Notes under the pieces: model-generated
Databases searched by the model: none
Told to the model about the DNA's origin: nothing
The model's input: only the letters and a program-made list of their open reading frames with translations
Program-made: the position numbers and the translations under genes
In this document: one piece after another, positions 5,967-34,050 of the stretch
Numbering within the stretch: position 1 is the first letter of the stretch
How the letters are laid out: each line of letters starts with the position of its first letter
Assembly (NCBI GenBank): GCA_937944405.1
Contig: CALDYR010000133.1
Coordinates: 1-39,515 of the forward strand
Direction of reading: 5' to 3'
Length of the DNA: 39,515 nucleotides
Source: an uncultured Pirellulaceae bacterium
GTDB taxonomy: Bacteria > Planctomycetota > Planctomycetia > Pirellulales > Pirellulaceae

Positions 5967-6038
5967 GGCCCCTTCGTCTAGTGGTTAGGACACCGGCCTT
6001 TCACGCCGGTAACACGGGTTCGAGTCCCGTAGGGGTCA
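5967..6038 (+). tRNA. tRNA-Glu (anticodon TTC)
   Basis: A 72-nt cloverleaf is visible. The acceptor stem GGCCCCT (5967-5973) pairs with AGGGGTC (6031-6037) with one G-U pair, and A6038 is the discriminator base. The anticodon stem CCGGC/GCCGG (5993-5997 with 6005-6009) encloses the loop CTTTCAC with anticodon TTC at 6000-6002. The T arm contains GGTTCGAGTCC. The CCA end is not encoded. The sequence closely follows bacterial tRNA-Glu, and an intrinsic terminator lies directly downstream. Confidence 0.97.
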
Positions 6039-6051
6039 TTTTTAGCTTTCT

Positions 6052-6086
6052 AAACCTCGGTAGACTTTTGTTTACCGAGGTTTTTG
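6052..6086 (+). terminator. Intrinsic terminator of tRNA-Glu
   Basis: An 11-bp perfect stem (6052-6062 AAACCTCGGTA with 6073-6083) closes a 10-nt loop and is followed by T residues through 6085. It begins 14 nt after the tRNA 3' end. Confidence 0.85.
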
Positions 6087-6330
6087 CATTCTTGCCCTGC
6101 CTATTTTGTGCTGTTTCGAACAGCGTGTGGCCACCGGTGTAGCCATCATCGCGTGCGACTACATTTCTTTTGGGGATTGCAGAATTGCTGAACGGATCAA
6201 CCGCCAGCGCTTTGCAGAAGTCTTGTTGAGTCGTCCGGGAGAAGTGGTCGCAGCCTTGGGGAGAACAGCGCCCTAATTGCCGGGCAAAATTGCAATGAAG
6301 CGACTGATATTGAGGAAACTCACAGCACCA

Positions 6331-6903
6331 TCACGCTTCTTCACTCAAATCCAGTTTGTGCGGCATCAAATACAAGTTATTTTCCTCAAACTCGGGTAAC
6401 CGTACAAAGTCGAACCGCTGGTAAACTTTTTGCGCCGCCACGTTATCCTTGTGAACATGCAAAAACAATAAGCTGACGTGTTTCTTGGCAGGCTTTAAAT
6501 CACGAATCTCAATCGCCAGCATTCGCGCCTCATAAATCAAATGCTCCATGATTTGACTAGAGAAACGCCAACGCGCATCCTCCGGTTTGCCATGGAATCT
6601 GGAGTCGATGCCGAGCTGCGGAATGTAAAGCAGGCGGATACGTTTTTTGCCCTCTGGTGGTGGCCACTTTTTGTCTCGGGTGGCATTGAGCGCGCCGAAC
6701 CCAACAATCTCATCAGACGTATTTCTAAATACCCAGACGCGTGTTTCGTTCTTTTCAATGGAGTTACAAGCCTCAGAACCCTTGATCCATTCAGTGGCGG
6801 CGCGCGATCATGCAGAGTCCCCGCAATTCAAACCAGTCATTTCAGACTGGTCTTCAATCGTAAACGCATCTGCAAATAATTGGTGGTCTTCCTTGCCAGC
6901 CAA
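6331..6903 (-). pseudogene. GNAT N-acetyltransferase, interrupted by in-frame TGA
   Basis: The minus-strand frame encodes a GNAT-type acetyltransferase of about 190 codons. The C-terminal half carries the acetyl-CoA-fold signature VHKDNVAAQKVYQRFDF, and the middle reads WVFRNTSDEIVGFGALN and LGIDSRFHG. The frame is open upstream to 7000 but broken once, by TGA at 6808-6810, in the context NCGDSA-(TGA)-SRAATEWIKG. As I recall, related proteins have a Trp in this CGD..W.R/A..W.KG segment, so a TGG-to-TGA change would explain the break. Downstream of the TGA the first ATG is at 6549, which would give only a 72-residue fragment. A TTG at 6903 is a plausible original start; an ATG at 6984 is possible. 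Selenocysteine is an unlikely alternative, as no redox motif surrounds it. Confidence 0.65.
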
Positions 6904-23889: not shown

Positions 23890-24960
23890 ATGAACGACCA
23901 ACCTTCCCCTGCCGGAACCGACCTTGCCGGCGACGACCTGGCCGCCCTCGAACGACTGAAAGAGGCTCACACAGCGGTGCGCAACGAACTCTCGAAAGTC
24001 ATCGTCGGCCAACATGAAGTCATCGAACAAATTATGATCGCGATCTTTGCACGCGGTCATTGCCTATTGGAGGGTGTGCCGGGACTGGCCAAAACGCTGA
24101 TGGTCAGCACTTTGGCCCGAACACTGAATTTGGACTTCAATCGTATCCAATTCACCCCCGACCTTATGCCCAGCGACATCGTCGGAACCGAAGTCATTCA
24201 AGAAGACAAAACCTCCGGCACCCGCGAATTCAAATTTCTTAAGGGCCCGATTTTTTCCAACATCGTGCTGGCTGATGAGATCAACCGCACCCCGCCCAAG
24301 ACCCAAGCAGCGTTGCTCGAAGCGATGCAGGAAAAACAAGTCACCATCGGCGGGCAACGCAACGAACTACCGGCCCCGTTCTTCGTGCTGGCGACGCAGA
24401 ATCCGATCGAACAGGAAGGCACCTACACCTTGCCCGAGGCTCAGCAAGATCGTTTTATGTTCAAAGTCTTTGTCAAATACCCCAACTACGATGAAGAATA
24501 CCTCATCGCGGCGACAACGACGGCGGACCTTGATTCGGACGTCAAACAAATTCTCTCCGCCGAAGACATCCTGCGGTTGCAGCAACTGGTTCGCAAAGTT
24601 CCCGTTGCCCCGCACGTGATTCACTTCGCCCTGCGTTTGGTGCGGGCGACAAGAGTCCTCGAAAACGACTGTCCAGAATTCGTCAAAGAGGCAATCAGTT
24701 GGGGCGCCGGGCCGCGCGGTGTACAGAACCTTTTATTGGGCGCTAAAGCCCGCGCGGTGCTCAATGGACGTACTTTCGCCAGCACCGAAGACGTGCGGGC
24801 GGTCGCGCTTCCGGTGCTGCGTCATCGCGTGATCACGAACTTCAACGCCGAATCTTCAGGCATTTCATCCGACGACATCATCACCCGGTTGCTCACCGAA
24901 CTGCCCGAACGAAACGATGGCGATCAAATGGTTCCCGAAGTGCAAAAAGCGTTTGGATAA
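23890..24960 (+). CDS. MoxR family AAA+ ATPase (copy 1)
   Basis: This 356-residue cytoplasmic AAA+ ATPase belongs to the MoxR group, chaperone-like proteins that act with VWA proteins in cofactor insertion or complex assembly. Walker A is GVPGLAKT (residues 62-69) and Walker B is IVLADE (125-130), followed by [18 protein letters not shown]; sensor 1 is in [16 protein letters not shown]. The lid domain includes [20 protein letters not shown]. The first 25 residues, rich in Asp/Ala, are variable. AGGAAA lies just before the ATG. A DUF58 gene follows 298 bp downstream. It is closely similar to the second copy at 32.0 kb. Confidence 0.95.
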
Positions 24961-25098
24961 AATTAGTGCCTATCGGAACTTTGTGGCACCAAGTACGCCG
25001 CAGGCTTGCCTTCTCCAGTGAATGTATTGGGATTCCCCCGGAATTCACTCAAATACAGCCATCGGGAATTCTGGCCGATCCCACTACGATTTTGAAGC

Positions 25099-25128
25099 TT
25101 GCCACTAAAATTCGGGAAACGCGATAAA
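25099..25128 (+). promoter_or_regulatory. Candidate sigma-70-type promoter for DUF58 gene 1
   Basis: TTGCCA (25099-25104) and GATAAA (25123-25128) are separated by 18 bp, 131 bp upstream of the DUF58 start. It would let the DUF58 gene be transcribed independently of moxR. This is a match by eye only. Confidence 0.3.
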
Positions 25129-25207
25129 CTTAGGATCGCCTTGGATGGCATCTTTCCCCAGCGGCGCGCTGATCGGGAGTTGACAATCGATTGGGGGTTG
25201 ATTGAGG

Positions 25208-25235
25208 GGCGCCCGCCGGGGCATGCCGTTTTTTT
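25208..25235 (+). terminator. Terminator-like hairpin between moxR and DUF58 gene 1
   Basis: GCCC (25211-25214) pairs with GGGC (25219-25222), and GGC/GCC extends the stem with a 2-nt bulge, followed by seven T residues at 25229-25235. It ends 23 nt before the DUF58 ATG, so as a full terminator it would block that gene; attenuation or chance is possible. Confidence 0.35.
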
Positions 25236-25258
25236 CTCTTACTCACGTGACAGCTTTC

Positions 25259-26176
25259 ATGGCCAAAACAGACAAATCAAAAAACTACTTGGACCCAAAA
25301 ACGCTGGATAAAATCAAGCGTTTAGAAGTCCGCGCTCGTTTGGTCGTTGAAGGTTTCATCACCGGCCAACATCGCAGTCCCTACAACGGATTCGCGATCG
25401 AATTCGCAGCTCACAGAGAGTATTCGCCGGGCGATGACCTGCGACACATCGATTGGAAAGTTTGGTCCAAAACCGACCGGCTGTATATCAAAGAGTACGA
25501 AGAAGAAACCAATCTCAAATGTCATCTCTTGGTTGACTGCAGCAAATCAATGCGGTACGGCGAAGAATCGGGGTGGAGCAAATTTGATTACGCGTCGACC
25601 GCTGCGGCAAGCCTTGGCTACCTGATGCAGCAGCAACAGGACTCCGTTGGGATGGTGACCTTCAGTAATCAAATCGACAAAACAACGAAAGCCAGTTCGC
25701 ACCCGTCGCACCTTAAATTGATCTTGCACGAACTGGAGGAAACTCAGCCCGATAATCAAACCGACATCAACGACCCGTTCATGGCGTTGGCGTCACAGAT
25801 TCGCGGACGCGGGCTTATCTGTTTGTTCTCAGATTTATTTCTCGACCCCGATCAATTGGGGAAATCGTTGCGACAGTTCCGCCTGCGGCGACATGAAGTG
25901 ATCGTCTTTCACATCATGCACCACGACGAATTAGAGTTTCCATTTCAAGAAAATACGCTGTTTAAGGGGATGGAGGTGGACCACCAACTCCACACCGAAC
26001 CGCGGGCGTTGCGAGCCTCTTATTTAAAAGCGGTGGACCAGTACATGTCGCGCGTGAAACAGGTCTGCTCCGCGGCGGGAATTGACCACGTGCTGATCGA
26101 CACCAGCCAGCCACTAGGCGCAGTGTTGACCAGCTACCTTGCGTTCCGATCCAAGTCCCGCCGCAAGCTGGTTTGA
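25259..26176 (+). CDS. DUF58 domain protein with VWA-like fold (copy 1)
   Basis: This 305-residue protein is the usual partner of MoxR ATPases. It has the DUF58 core (IKRLEVRARLVVEGFITGQH, YSPGDDLRHIDWKVWSKTD) and a VWA-type metal motif D93-C-S95-K-S97. No membrane segment or signal peptide is visible, so it is cytoplasmic, unlike many DUF58 proteins that carry two N-terminal helices. The ATG at 25259 gives the start MAKTDKSKNYLDPKTL, equivalent to that of copy 2; upstream in-frame starts at 25202 (TTG) and 25223 would add residues without homology. The role of DUF58 proteins is unsettled; cooperation with MoxR in assembling envelope complexes is inferred. Confidence 0.93.
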   Translation: MAKTDKSKNYLDPKTLDKIKRLEVRARLVVEGFITGQHRSPYNGFAIEFAAHREYSPGDDLRHIDWKVWSKTDRLYIKEYEEETNLKCHLLVDCSKSMRYGEESGWSKFDYASTAAASLGYLMQQQQDSVGMVTFSNQIDKTTKASSHPSHLKLILHELEETQPDNQTDINDPFMALASQIRGRGLICLFSDLFLDPDQLGKSLRQFRLRRHEVIVFHIMHHDELEFPFQENTLFKGMEVDHQLHTEPRALRASYLKAVDQYMSRVKQVCSAAGIDHVLIDTSQPLGAVLTSYLAFRSKSRRKLV

Positions 26177-26227: not shown

Positions 26228-26551
26228 CTAGAGATCGGCTTCGTACTCCGCCCCACAGGACCAACACGCAAAGAACCCCTCGTCGACATCTTCGCCACAT
26301 TGGCATTTCCATGCCGGACAGGTTTGCGTTTGAGCGTCGTTTAATTCTGCCAACAAATGTTGGGCTTTTTCTAAGTTCGTTTCGGCGACGATGATCTCGA
26401 TTCCCGCCAATTCACCGATCCCAAGATCGAAGGCCCCGCCTTCATCATTCATTTGGGCCACGATACCATGTTCGGCCAGTAGATTGATTGCCTGTTGGGC
26501 TTCAACGTCGTTGCTGAATTCGGCAGCGGCCACTAAATCGTCGTCTTGCAT
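26228..26551 (-). CDS. DUF2007-like protein with C-terminal zinc ribbon
   Basis: This 107-residue protein starts MQDDDLVAAAEFSNDVEAQQ and continues with AINLLAEHGIVAQMND and IEIIVAETNLEKAQHLLAEL, the alpha/beta pattern of DUF2007 (a small ferredoxin-like fold of unknown, perhaps signalling, function). The C-terminal 30 residues form a zinc ribbon with C-x-C and C-x2-C pairs (CQCGEDV, CWSCGAEY) plus an earlier Cys. AAAGG lies 9 nt upstream of the ATG at 26551. It is divergent from the selenoprotein gene, with a 179-bp gap. Confidence 0.78.
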   Translation of the reverse strand: MQDDDLVAAAEFSNDVEAQQAINLLAEHGIVAQMNDEGGAFDLGIGELAGIEIIVAETNLEKAQHLLAELNDAQTQTCPAWKCQCGEDVDEGFFACWSCGAEYEADL

Positions 26552-26674
26552 TGGAGTCGCCTTTCGGGGGGGCGTAGGTCGCGCGGAAATTAACACAGTC
26601 GCTAAAATTATGTCAGGTCTTTAGTGAAACACCAAACACACGTGGCACAATATCAGACTAAAGGCGAAAGTTCC

Positions 26675-26698
26675 GCCCTCAGACAAACGTCTGAAGGC
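26675..26698. repeat. Inverted repeat in the DUF2007/selenoprotein intergenic gap
   Basis: GCCCTCAGAC (26675-26684) pairs with GTCTGAAGGC (26689-26698) with one mismatch around the loop AAAC. It sits 33 bp before the selenoprotein start codon. No T-run follows; an operator or an intergenic repeat are both possible. Confidence 0.4.
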
Positions 26699-26730
26699 TA
26701 CAATTGAGGGAAAACTAATTAGGAGCATCC

Positions 26731-27789
26731 ATGAAGCCAATTCCTATTTCTACAACCAACGTGAAAGCCGCGCCGATAATTTTGGCCCTGTGTTGCATTG
26801 TTTTTTGCGCAGCAGTTGTAATTGTTGCTTTTCTAGCCAATTCTAAAGCGTTTGCCAAACCGGCGCCGCAAGAACAAGCTCAAGACCGAAGCGGATCGGT
26901 ATCCCAACCGGTAGAACTTGGCAATGTCCGTTGGCAGCGCGATTTGAACAGCGCGGTTGCTGATTCGAAACAAAAAGACAAACCGATCGCGATTCTGTTT
27001 CAAGAAGTCCCCGGCTGACAGGGTTGTCAAAAATACGGCCAGCAGGTGTTGGCCCAACCTTTGATTGTTGAGGCGCTTGAAGAAAACTTTATCCCCGTCG
27101 CCATCTACAATAACGCTGGCGGGAAAGACAAAGAAGTCCTGAACCAGTTCAACGAACCGGCGTGGAACTACCAAGTGATGCGGTTCTTGAGTCCGCAACT
27201 CAACGACATCATCCCCCGGAAAGACAAAGTCTGGACCATCCATTCAACAGCGACTCGTTTGGTGAGCGCTATTGAGACTTCTGGTAAAACTGCCCCCGGC
27301 TACTTAACCAATGTACTGATCCCCGAATCCAGTCCTAGCAATCGAATCGCTGTTTTTGCGATGTACTGCTTTTGGACAGGAGAGGCCAAGCTTGGTTCGC
27401 TCGATGGGGTAATCGCGACTGAAGCTGGATTTTACGATGGACACGAAGTTGTCGTTGTAAAATACAACGACGAAAAGATCGAACTGATTGACTTGGTGAA
27501 AAACGCCGAAACATTTGATTGTGCCCATGCTGTGTTCCTGCCAACCAAAGTGGAACAACAGGAAATTGAACGGAAGACACGCCTCAAAAATGTCTCTCTT
27601 TTCAGCTTCGACGGAGGCTATCGACGCGCCCCGCAAAGCGATCAAAAAAGGCAAATCGCATCTAACGAAAAACTGAAAACACTCGGACTAACACCGATGC
27701 AGTTGACGAAAATTAACTCGCGGGTCGTCTCTAAAGACTCGATCGATCAGTGGTTGTCGCCGCGCCAGATTGCGAAACTGGAAAAATAG
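26731..27789 (+). CDS. Probable selenoprotein: thioredoxin-like plus MsrA-like domains
   Basis: One 352-codon frame runs across a single TGA at codon 96 (27016-27018). AGGAG lies 7 nt before the ATG. Residues 15-42 are a membrane anchor or signal peptide (IILALCCIVFCAAVVIVAF). Before the TGA the sequence KPIAILFQEVPG looks like the strand leading to a thioredoxin active site; read as selenocysteine, the motif is VPG-U96-Q-G-C99, a U-x-x-C redox pair. I recall a named family of thioredoxin-like (seleno)proteins with a VPGU motif, which this resembles. The C-terminal half has C213-F-W-T-G-E218, GVIATEAGF and HEVVVVKYNDEKI, corresponding to the MsrA motifs GCFWG.E, GV..T..GY and H.E.V.V.YDP, though the usual segment between the last two is missing. 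It would act outside the cytoplasmic membrane in thiol/selenol repair. The alternative, a nonsense-mutated Cys protein, is less likely given the motif and the hairpin after the TGA. Confidence 0.85.
27016..27054 (+). promoter_or_regulatory. Candidate bacterial SECIS element
   Basis: Downstream of the TGA, GGCCAGC (27037-27043) pairs with GTTGGCC (27048-27054) through seven pairs including one G-U, closing an AGGT apical loop (27044-27047). The loop GGT begins about 27 nt after the TGA. Bacterial SECIS hairpins, such as that of E. coli fdhF, present a G-U in an AGGU-like loop at a similar distance. A smaller hairpin, TGACA-GGGT-TGTCA (27016-27029), includes the TGA itself. The element lies within coding sequence, as bacterial ones do. 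Confidence 0.65.
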
Positions 27790-28227
27790 ATTCATGGGCT
27801 CTCCCAACGTTGGCGCTTCCAGAAAGGTGGTGCCTCCTCAACTAAGATGACGGGGAAGACATAACTAAGGCGCGTTTGCAAATCAGCAAACGCGCCTTGG
27901 TTCAATCATGTGCTAGTTCCCCAACTCGGTAGTCCTGTAAACTACTTGTTTTCGCTGGCCTGCCGCTGATTTCAGTTCCCGCCGGTGTGATCGTGGTTTC
28001 TTTTAGACACAACGCGCGGCGTGAAGATGGTCGATAACGCTCTCATTGACGATCGTGTTAAGGCGTAGCAGTGAAGCAACACTGCCGTCGGTTGATCTCA
28101 ACCATCTCCGTAAATCTAAACCGCACTCTGCGGTATTGTGCCCTTTGCATCAATCTTCCGATGGGCTATCGTCACCTCAGTTAACTTTGGCGGACTTCGA
28201 AAAATCAAAACACGAGCGAGACGCACA
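27790..28227. other. Intergenic region between selenoprotein and aldo/keto reductase
   Basis: About 440 bp without a supported gene. It contains the strong hairpin at 27867-27898 and presumably the promoter of the aldo/keto reductase gene, for which no clear hexamers were found. Confidence 0.4.
27867..27898 (+). terminator. Probable terminator of the selenoprotein gene
   Basis: A perfect 13-bp stem (27867-27879 AAGGCGCGTTTGC with 27886-27898) closes a 6-nt loop, 77 nt after the stop codon. Only a weak T-containing tract (GGTTC) follows, so termination may be less efficient than at ftsH. Confidence 0.6.
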
Positions 28228-31728: not shown

Positions 31729-31995
31729 CAATTCACCAGTCGCTAGAAAACTCGGTCGTTAAAAACTCGGTCGCTAATAAATGAATACATCGATCGATCA
31801 CGCGCGTTGCTGTACCGTACTGTTGATCATACAATAGAATTAAATGTTGCGTAGATCGGCAACTTCATTCGCCCCAATCAGCCCCAACGCGCTGGTCCGA
31901 TGACGCCTGCTTAACGTCCAACGGATTCGGTTCACAATATTTTACGGCACGACACAAATTAAACTTTGTCCCAACCAAAGATCCAAGAGGAACGA

Positions 31996-33015
31996 GTGTC
32001 CGGAAAATCACGAAGTTTAGGCGACGTTCTGCAAGAGTTCAGCCAACACCGAAAAGTTATGGAGCAAGAACTCCACAAGGTCATCGTTGGCCAAGAGCAA
32101 GTCATCGACCAAGTGTTTGCGGCGATCTTCACGCGTGGACACTGCCTGTTAGAGGGCGTCCCCGGACTGGCCAAAACACTGATGGTCAGCACGATCGCTA
32201 AAATTTTGGATGTGAACTTCAAACGGATCCAATTCACGCCCGACCTAATGCCATCAGACATCACCGGCACCAACGTGTTGGACGAAGACGAAAACGGTCG
32301 ACGCCAATTCCGTTTTGTCGAAGGGCCTATTTTCACCAACATCCTGTTGGCGGACGAAATCAACCGCACGCCGCCCAAAACCCAAGCCGCACTTCTTCAG
32401 GCGATGCAAGAGCGCGAAGTTACCATCGGCACCAAGACCTTCAATCTGGCGCCCCCGTTTTTCACCATCGCGACCCAAAACCCGATCGAACAGGAAGGAA
32501 CCTATCCATTGCCTGAAGCCCAATTAGATCGATTCATGTTCAACATCAAAGTCGGTTACCCTACTGCCACAGAAGAAGAACAAATCCTCAGCGCGTCCAG
32601 TCGCGACGAAAAACAGGATGTGCGAAAGATTCTTTCCGCCAAAGCGATTGTGAATTTACAGAAGTTGGTAAATTCAGTCGCCGTCAGCGATTACATCATC
32701 AAATATGTGGCTCAGTTGGTCCGATCGACCCGCCCAGCCGACCAACAAGCGCCCGCGTTTGTGAAGGAATTAGTCGACTGGGGCGCCGGGCCGCGCGCCG
32801 GGCAGTTCTTAATCTCGGGAGGCAAAGCGATGGCGGCGATGGACGGACGATTTTCTGTCGGCATCGAAGACGTAAAAAAAGTTGCATTAGCAGTGCTTCG
32901 GCATCGCGTCAGCACCAACTTCCAAGCCCAAGCCGAAGGCATGACCACCGAAGACGTTATTCAGCGCTTGATCGACGAAATCCCCACCCCCGCAGTGCCT
33001 AAATATGAAGAATAG
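31996..33015 (+). CDS. MoxR family AAA+ ATPase (copy 2)
   Basis: A 339-residue paralogue of the ATPase at 23.9 kb. Walker A is GVPGLAKT (54-61) and Walker B is ILLADE (116-121), followed by [18 protein letters not shown]; sensor 1 is in [16 protein letters not shown]. The two copies are nearly identical in these blocks (for example [10 protein letters not shown] in both) and differ mainly at the N-terminus. The GTG at 31996 is preferred because AAGAGG stands 5 nt before it; a TTG at 31966 would add ten residues without such a site. It heads the cluster moxR-DUF58-BatA-like-amidotransferase-like, and is divergent from the DUF4159 gene. Confidence 0.93.
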   Translation: MSGKSRSLGDVLQEFSQHRKVMEQELHKVIVGQEQVIDQVFAAIFTRGHCLLEGVPGLAKTLMVSTIAKILDVNFKRIQFTPDLMPSDITGTNVLDEDENGRRQFRFVEGPIFTNILLADEINRTPPKTQAALLQAMQEREVTIGTKTFNLAPPFFTIATQNPIEQEGTYPLPEAQLDRFMFNIKVGYPTATEEEQILSASSRDEKQDVRKILSAKAIVNLQKLVNSVAVSDYIIKYVAQLVRSTRPADQQAPAFVKELVDWGAGPRAGQFLISGGKAMAAMDGRFSVGIEDVKKVALAVLRHRVSTNFQAQAEGMTTEDVIQRLIDEIPTPAVPKYEE

Positions 33016-33156
33016 GAACATATCGAAGCTTCAATCCGCCGCCACCTGAGAAACTAAACCTGCGGCACAAGGGCGTAATTTCACAGCCGCCCCAATCCCC
33101 TCGGGCCGCACCCCGCTGGTAAGGACGCACACGAAAACACCGCCGCGCTGTTGAAA

Positions 33157-34050
33157 ATGTCAGTCGAAAAATACCTCAAACCCGAAGTCATCAACCAGAT
33201 CAAACGGCTCGACCTGCGGGCCCAGTTTGTCGTCAAAGGCTTCTTGCACGGGCTCCACGCCAGCCCTTTTCATGGCTTCAGCGTCGAATTCAGCGAACAC
33301 CGCAAATACACCCAAGGTGACGACCTCAAAGACATCGACTGGCAGGTTTACGCAAAAACCGATAAGTACTACGTAAAAAAATTCGAATCCGAGACAAACA
33401 TCACCGGGTATCTGGTGATGGATCTCAGTCACTCGATGGGATACACCTATCGTCAGACGCTGACCAAGTTCGATTACGGGATTTGTCTGGCCGCATCATT
33501 GGCCTACCTGATGGTCAATCAGCAGGATCCCGTTGGCCTCATCACTTTCAACGATAAAATTCGGCATTCGTTGCCTCCGCGCAGCAAACGAACTCAGTTG
33601 GGTAATTTGATTTCGCTGCTCTCCAACCTCAAACCTGCAGGCGTTACAGATTTTCGCAACAGTATCTTCCAACTGGCCGCGATGCTAAAAAACCGCAGCT
33701 TGGTGATGATTTTTTCGGACTTCCTGATCGACGAAAAAGAAACCATGGACGCTGTCTTTCGCCTCCGCCACAGCGGCCACGACGTGATCATGTTTCACAT
33801 CCTTGACGAAGCCGAAGTCAGCTTCCCTTTCAATGGGGTCTGCAAAATGAAGGACCCGGAAACCGGCGACGAACTCCGAGTCGACGCTGACGGGTTTCGA
33901 AGCGACTACGTGGATCAGATCGAAGCATTTCGCGCATCATTGAATCGGCAATGTCAAAAAAACGGGATCGATTACGTCCCCATCGACACCAGTATGCAAT
34001 TCGACAAAGCGCTCTTGGAATACCTTATCAGTCGCAGGGCAAGGGGGTAA
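33157..34050 (+). CDS. DUF58 domain protein with VWA-like fold (copy 2)
   Basis: This 297-residue protein is collinear with the DUF58 protein at 25.3 kb (KYLKPEVINQIKRLDLRAQF and YTQGDDLKDIDWQVYAKTD). The metal motif is D89-L-S91-H-S93. No membrane helix is seen. ATG 33157 is used (MSVEKYLKPEV); a TTG two codons upstream is also in frame. The next gene starts 3 nt after its stop, with the Shine-Dalgarno AGGGGG lying in the last codons of this gene, so the two are tightly coupled. MoxR copy 2 ends 141 bp upstream. Confidence 0.93.
   Translation: MSVEKYLKPEVINQIKRLDLRAQFVVKGFLHGLHASPFHGFSVEFSEHRKYTQGDDLKDIDWQVYAKTDKYYVKKFESETNITGYLVMDLSHSMGYTYRQTLTKFDYGICLAASLAYLMVNQQDPVGLITFNDKIRHSLPPRSKRTQLGNLISLLSNLKPAGVTDFRNSIFQLAAMLKNRSLVMIFSDFLIDEKETMDAVFRLRHSGHDVIMFHILDEAEVSFPFNGVCKMKDPETGDELRVDADGFRSDYVDQIEAFRASLNRQCQKNGIDYVPIDTSMQFDKALLEYLISRRARG

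Follow-up and report, generated by a model that had tools for sequence, protein, structure and literature searches.

Gene structure at the locus

The window, by which the whole analysed stretch of 39.5 kb is meant, carries on its forward strand a reading frame that begins with ATG at 26731, closes with TAG at 27787-27789 and is open but for a single TGA (Table 1). Recounting by translation gave the same 95 codons before and 256 codons after this TGA as the original prediction, which had also claimed a Shine-Dalgarno sequence at the upstream ATG; an AGGAG indeed precedes the ATG by 5 nt. Read with TGA as selenocysteine (Sec, U), the frame yields 352 residues with one U at position 96 in the context ILFQEVPG-U-QGC-QKYG. 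Under translation table 11 the earliest start codon 3' of the TGA is GTG at 27046, beyond the active site. A survey of the entire window for frames in which a single TGA is preceded by 60 or more codons (from a start codon) and followed by 100 or more recovered only this frame and another at 6001-6549 on the reverse strand. Because the N-terminus is strongly hydrophobic (19-residue mean hydropathy of 3.3 for residues 16-34, with no segment starting after residue 60 above 1.6), the protein is likely to be exported.

A MoxR-type ATPase followed by a DUF58-type protein occurs in two copies in the window, at 23890-26176 and 31966-34050, the first pair having been assigned with Pfam and the second by eye from the list of open reading frames.

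Table 1: Positions of the gene and its features in the window.
Feature	Position	Strand	Basis
Shine-Dalgarno-like AGGAG	26721..26725	+	5 nt before ATG, read directly
Coding sequence, 352 residues plus TAG, TGA codon 96 read as Sec	26731..27789	+	translation; NF041383, 332 bits; selection on both sides
N-terminal hydrophobic segment, residues 16-34, probable signal or membrane anchor	26776..26832	+	hydropathy
Thioredoxin-like domain, residues 67-134	26929..27132	+	Pfam PF13899 Thioredoxin_7
In-frame TGA, codon 96, predicted Sec	27016..27018	+	44 TGA, 83 Cys, 1 Gly among 128 readable sequences
Cys99, partner of Sec96 in UxxC motif	27025..27027	+	Cys in 124/129 distinct sequences
Bacterial SECIS-type hairpin	stem 27037..27043 with 27048..27054, loop AGGU 27044..27047	+	fold, shuffles, relatives
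MsrA-like core, residues 207-240	27349..27450	+	PMSR 22.7 bits; A1 profile against solved MsrA chains
Cys213, aligned with Cys of MsrA CFW motif	27367..27369	+	TGA in 19 relatives
Glu239, aligned with a Glu of MsrA	27445..27447	+	Glu in 127/129 distinct sequences
Cys264, candidate resolving Cys for Cys213	27520..27522	+	Cys in 97/129 distinct sequences

Family membership and domains

Against the NCBIfam model NF041383 ('VPGUxxT family thioredoxin-like (seleno)protein, type 2') the window protein scored 332 bits, with a cut-off of 275, over residues 62-349 and profile positions 1-286 of 287. The same model was matched by all 13 rows of alignment A1 and by every scanned row among the relatives with two TGA codons (14 of 19 were scanned). 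The likeness to the family lies in this score, in the VPGU motif and in the presence of both Sec and Cys members. The window protein differs from the family name in its UQGC, Cys and not Thr standing three positions after U here and in 124 of the 129 distinct sequences compared; membership is judged here by the curated score rather than by the xxT of the name. On these sequence grounds the window gene is a new member of an already catalogued selenoprotein family.

The hypothetical protein OS_HP5 is said to have been first described in the paper on the Olavius symbiont. In the accessible portion of a 2026 review, the entry 'VPGUxxT family thioredoxin-like protein (hypothetical protein OS_HP5)', NF041383, is given with one Sec (PMC13188914), the corresponding portion of a 2022 review lists OS_HP5 without a motif (PMC9312934), that of a further paper contains no HP5 (PMC2398784), and Sec use in other planctomycetes is documented in part of another (PMC4807772). 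In the literature covered, outside of which lay subscription papers, the family name was met in the 2026 review alone, and among the matches to the four names searched selenoproteins were treated by the two reviews only.

The original prediction had placed the TGA at the start of a thioredoxin-like active site with a U-x-x-C motif, and had argued that a split into two genes would cut the domain through its redox motif. Both points held: Pfam PF13899 (Thioredoxin_7) matched residues 67-134 with 34.9 bits against a gathering score of 27, and the TGA lies within this range, U96 and C99 forming the UxxC.

Further downstream, the PMSR model (PF01625) scored 22.7 bits, narrowly missing its cut-off of 23.7, over residues 207-240 and profile positions 2-35 of 153, and TIGR00401 scored 16.8 bits, far below its cut-off of 108.1, so that only the first part of an MsrA domain is matched and no full domain surpasses a curated cut-off. 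Searched against solved structures, the A1 profile returned 18 sequences, each bearing the name MsrA or methionine sulfoxide reductase; the best E was 8.9e-9, and the matches span about 35-80 residues, less than the MsrA domain. In this alignment Cys213 coincides with the CFW-motif Cys and Glu239 with a Glu, which we take to be the catalytic residues of MsrA. Every one of the 127 distinct sequences readable at residue 213 has Cys or TGA there, and residue 264 is Cys in 97 of 129, another residue in 17 and unreadable in 15. Among the scanned relatives with two TGA codons, 13 of 14 matched PMSR at E 0.001, one of them (L027) with 31.1 bits. Judged by sequence, the second domain is homologous to the MsrA core. 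One genome with a TGA form (G027, locus L025) also encodes, as seen by eye, an ordinary Cys MsrA (L052).

Distribution of TGA and Cys among relatives

Of 199 genomes of its own family, the window protein matched 61 at E 0.001 and 12, its own included, at E below 1e-50. With alignment A1 as the query, 7 of 397 class genomes matched at 1e-15, and at 1e-30 matches came from 21 of 241 genomes of the family and 39 of 392 of the phylum, nine of the phylum matches being without a locus and unread. A pattern scan of genome contigs found at least 206 relatives, of which 80 were kept; both patterns required Cys codons at the active sites, which biases the scan to Cys forms and makes it blind to genes with TGA at both sites. 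The resulting 152 loci were reduced to 129 distinct sequences, window included, by dropping 23 duplicates.

Residue 96 was read by profile alignment across the loci. It is TGA in 44, Cys in 83 and Gly in one of the 128 readable distinct sequences, window included, so that the comparison of homologues proposed with the original prediction, which asked for U or C at this position, came out in favour of it in 127 cases. Paired with residue 213, the distinct sequences comprise 83 Cys-Cys, 24 TGA-Cys and 19 TGA-TGA forms and no Cys-TGA form; the rest are a one-domain paralogue with TGA (L051), a fragment without residue 96 (L050) and the Gly sequence (L111, 2244-2261). This last sequence, with HGGAVC around residue 96 and Cys at 213, is the sole one with neither Cys nor TGA at 96.

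Named relatives of the Cys form belong to Verrucomicrobiota, Bacteroidota, Myxococcota, Thermodesulfobacteriota, Actinomycetota and Planctomycetota, those of the TGA form to Planctomycetota and Verrucomicrobiota. The nearest named relative, from a Pirellulaceae metagenome-assembled genome (L059), is 67% identical to the window protein and has the TGA too. A tree of 126 rows, built with both sites masked, implies a minimum of 14 label changes at residue 96 and about 5 at residue 213, counts which stem from a quick method that left 40 of 123 inner branches open.

The codons on either side of the TGA are under purifying selection. Between the window and its nearest named relative, pN was 0.36 and pS 0.67 over 98 codons before U, and 0.15 and 0.78, respectively, over 254 codons after it. 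In comparison with six close relatives, in all of which the residue aligned to U96 is likewise TGA, third positions differed most and pN remained below pS on both sides. Since relatives align through the TGA on both sides and nonsynonymous differences are fewer than synonymous ones, the frame with its TGA goes beyond what chance would produce.

Selenocysteine machinery

The search for Sec machinery which the original prediction had recommended was successful for each component. In the draft genome (3.95 Mb, 161 contigs, 93.4% complete), selA scored 579.8 bits against a curated cut-off of 267.9, selB 343.5 against 242.25 and selD 254.4 against 125, and a tRNA-Sec was found with 66 bits against an Rfam gathering score of 47, its anticodon TCA being assigned by ARAGORN. 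The selD match (L057, G000:C29:1788-2708) lies within an open frame of 741 residues, and because this exceeds twice the length of the 311-position model, it may be fused with another domain.

Across relatives, selA was matched in 41 of 43 tested genomes with the TGA form (9/9, 7/7 and 25/27 by batch) and in 19 of 56 with the Cys form (1/3, 11/46 and 7/7), a difference for which Fisher's test gave p 8e-11, a value that overstates the evidence as the rows are related. From the 80 loci kept of the contig scan, 30 lay outside the second batch, 3 of them in genomes already tested and 27 left out. No selA was found in the TGA-form genomes G620 (89% complete) and G796 (77% complete), and G799, with a partial match below the cut-off, was counted as having it. 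As all seven Planctomycetota Cys-form genomes of the last batch have selA, the Cys form does not simply track loss of the machinery. The one-domain paralogue (L051, G065:C171), with TGA in its PGUQGC and a GGU hairpin, stands in a genome that gave no selA match (86% complete); selA may have been missed, or the contig may be a stray one.

Hairpins downstream of the TGA

The 51 nt following the TGA (27019-27069) fold with -17.5 kcal/mol into a hairpin with a 7-bp stem and an AGGU loop starting 25 nt past the TGA. This lies within the published limits for bacterial SECIS elements, which in the accessible text are a loop of 3-9 nt, a stem of 4-16 bp, G in the first two loop positions, a spacing of 16-37 nt and a minimum free energy of at most -7.5 (PMC13188914). 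Compared with dinucleotide shuffles, the fold showed a moderate excess only (z -1.88, 10 of 200 as good), and under synonymous shuffling a hairpin as good arose in 0.3% of 1000 shuffles if a GGU loop was demanded and in 2% of 300 if any loop with G was accepted. An Rfam search of 26400-28100 with E up to 10 returned two irrelevant matches far below their gathering scores.

Across relatives, hairpins accompany TGA far more than Cys. At residue 96 a hairpin score of at least 8 was reached by 34 of the 44 sites with TGA but only 3 of the 83 with Cys, and at residue 213 by 11 of 18 with TGA and 6 of 108 with Cys; with amino acids held fixed, p of at most 0.05 was obtained for 29 of 44 against 5 of 83 at the first and 6 of 18 against 2 of 108 at the second site. 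Ten of the 44 first-site TGA sites scored below 8, and all those below 6 (L173, L177, L180, L185, L192, L194) belong to relatives with two TGA codons. An earlier version of the motif test, based on the GGU loop, found the three second-site TGA rows that it covered no better than chance. The loop-motif tests, which were designed after the hairpins had been viewed and hence were not blind, separated TGA from Cys much better than a constrained-hairpin energy test, in which the separation was weak at the first site (mean z -0.97 for 17 TGA against -0.42 for 22 sampled of 76 Cys sites) and ran the wrong way at the second (-0.14 for three TGA against -1.04 for 10 sampled of 49 Cys sites).

The distance from the first TGA to the first G of the loop differs among groups (e.g., 18, 24 and 26 nt). 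In the close group of the window (7 of the 14 rows with G at 26 nt) pairing was 100%, with two cells changed on both sides: a compensatory change from C-G to U-A occurs in two of the seven rows, five of seven pairs are invariant, and the covariation, matched by 24 of 500 shuffles, rests on this one pair. Set A5, nine rows chosen for a loop G at 24 nt, showed 95% pairing and seven cells changed on both sides, a level reached by 0 of 500 shuffles; as the rows of A5 and of the close group were selected by hairpin, both percentages of pairing are biased in favour of the structure. Two Cys forms (L142, L080) keep a good SECIS-like GGU hairpin after the Cys codon, which may be a relic of lost Sec; selA is present in the genome of L142 and was not found in that of L080.

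Relatives with two TGA codons

While the window gene would use Sec at the first site only and has Cys at 213, a second in-frame TGA occurs at this position in 19 relatives (L026, L027, L028, L156, L158, L173, L175-L177, L180, L183-L185, L187, L188, L190, L192, L194 and L195), all found in Planctomycetota, the phylum of the window. Because the contig scan was blind to genes of this kind, their confinement to one phylum says nothing on other phyla. TGA at 213 was present in 19 of 43 sequences with TGA at 96 and in 0 of 83 with Cys at 96, and selA was matched in 18 of the 19 genomes. The hairpin after the second TGA has an AGUU or GGUU loop with its first G 19-20 nt after the UGA, and across all 19 rows (set A3) 92% of cells were paired and 14 cells had changed on both sides, with 0 of 500 shuffles as high.

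From these sequence patterns the 19 relatives are probable double selenoproteins. We consider it probable that a sizeable part of NF041383 in Planctomycetota consists of such proteins, with one Sec in the UxxC motif, another in place of the CFW Cys in a reduced MsrA-like domain of the same chain, and a separate SECIS hairpin after the second UGA. Against this weigh the small number of changes at 213 on the tree (about five) and the result that, with amino acids held fixed, no more than six of 18 second-site hairpins attained p of at most 0.05, despite a clear covariation of the stem. No description of a form with two Sec was found in the literature covered, subscription papers and the NCBI model notes lying outside that coverage; for this reason, such members may already be known to the curators of NF041383.

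Discussion

The gene at 26731-27789 is best read as a selenoprotein of family NF041383 in which the internal TGA encodes Sec, a reading to which we assign a probability of about 95%, because the machinery, the interchange of TGA and Cys, the hairpin, the selection on both sides and the family membership all point to it. The probable selenoprotein of the original prediction is thus upheld, and the catalogued family, the SECIS-type hairpin and the MsrA-like domain downstream go beyond it.

Three other readings of the TGA were weighed and rejected on the pattern at residue 96, the selection, the hairpin, the machinery and the Cys relatives in one frame. That the TGA is a real stop, brought about in a Cys-form gene by a nonsense mutation or a sequencing error and leaving a pseudogene, would suit a draft genome in 161 contigs and the many relatives with Cys at the site, yet it is extremely improbable, since 44 of the 128 distinct sequences, which come from many genomes and include all seven of the close group, share this TGA, the downstream codons are under purifying selection and the hairpin occurs with TGA far more than with Cys. 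Hardly more credible is a division into two genes, one for an exported peptide of 95 residues and one for a protein initiated at GTG 27046: table 11 does offer open reading frames on either side, but such a division would break the thioredoxin-like domain, which spans residues 67-134, at the redox motif, and G065 and G142 have Cys-form relatives that are whole in one frame with no stop. That TGA is generally decoded as an amino acid such as the Trp of code 4, or is passed by leaky read-through, deserves equally little belief, given that the 84 of 128 sequences without TGA have Cys (83) or Gly (one) and never Trp, that a dedicated tRNA-Sec is present with selA, selB and selD, and that a SECIS-type hairpin follows the TGA.

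For the selenoprotein thus preferred, codon 96 would be decoded as Sec by SelB and tRNA-Sec, directed by the hairpin whose loop starts 25 nt downstream, and the product would probably be exported and remain attached through the hydrophobic segment at its N-terminus. Sec96 and Cys99 would act as the UxxC pair of the thioredoxin-like domain, and Cys213 with Glu239 as an MsrA-like site in the second domain. In the likeliest chemistry, a sulfoxide or a similar oxidised sulfur substrate would be attacked by Cys213, a disulfide would then form, perhaps with Cys264, and Sec96-Cys99 would reduce it by an electron flow between the domains, so that a reductase and its own thioredoxin would be joined on one chain.

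An MsrA-like chemistry of the second domain is somewhat favoured over its loss. The less probable, though still considerable, alternative is a selenoprotein in which Cys213 and Glu239 serve another purpose, for instance metal or metalloid binding or disulfide exchange; it gains from the match to only the first part of the MsrA domain (profile 2-35 of 153) and from the TIGR00401 score of 16.8 against 108.1. It is countered by the constancy of both residues, Cys or TGA at 213 in 127 of 127 and Glu at 239 in 127 of 129 sequences, and by the 19 relatives with TGA at 213, as Sec occupies the catalytic site of MsrA selenoproteins in the part of the review available (PMC13188914).

The arrangement proposed for the window protein can be set beside three known systems. 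With selenoprotein MsrA (peptide-methionine (S)-S-oxide reductase) it has in common the C/U-F/Y-W motif and the aligned Cys and Glu; it differs in that the match is confined to the initial part of the 153-position PMSR domain and stands behind a thioredoxin-like domain, and in the Cys at the site of the window protein. PilB-type MsrA/B proteins have an exported N-terminal thioredoxin-like domain ahead of full MsrA and MsrB domains and are not known to contain Sec; the shared feature is the exported thioredoxin-like domain ahead of Msr domains, while the full MsrA and MsrB domains and the lack of a known Sec set them apart. 'Tandem use of selenocysteine', to go by its title, reportedly concerns a Sec-glutaredoxin acting on a Sec-MsrA, a Sec thiol-redox and a Sec MsrA module as proposed for the relatives with two TGA codons, the two being separate proteins there and one chain here. 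Compared with the family entry itself, for which the review lists one Sec, the 19 relatives with two TGA codons differ.

Since TGA at 213 was never seen without TGA at 96, and since selA is present in 18 of 19 of these genomes, the two-TGA relatives suggest that selenium could form a self-contained relay, a reductase site with Sec needing a reductant that also has Sec, both within one protein.

Through the window gene, NF041383, a catalogued family for which no described function was found, gains a well-supported selenoprotein and a possible role, i.e., an exported thioredoxin-like module coupled to an MsrA-like module. The hairpin, placed at several distances after the first UGA and accompanying TGA and not Cys, makes the family a good case for Sec sites arising and fading, and the series of Cys-Cys, Sec-Cys and Sec-Sec forms is natural material for asking why and in what order Sec was gained. 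The relatives with two TGA codons are the part most worth following.
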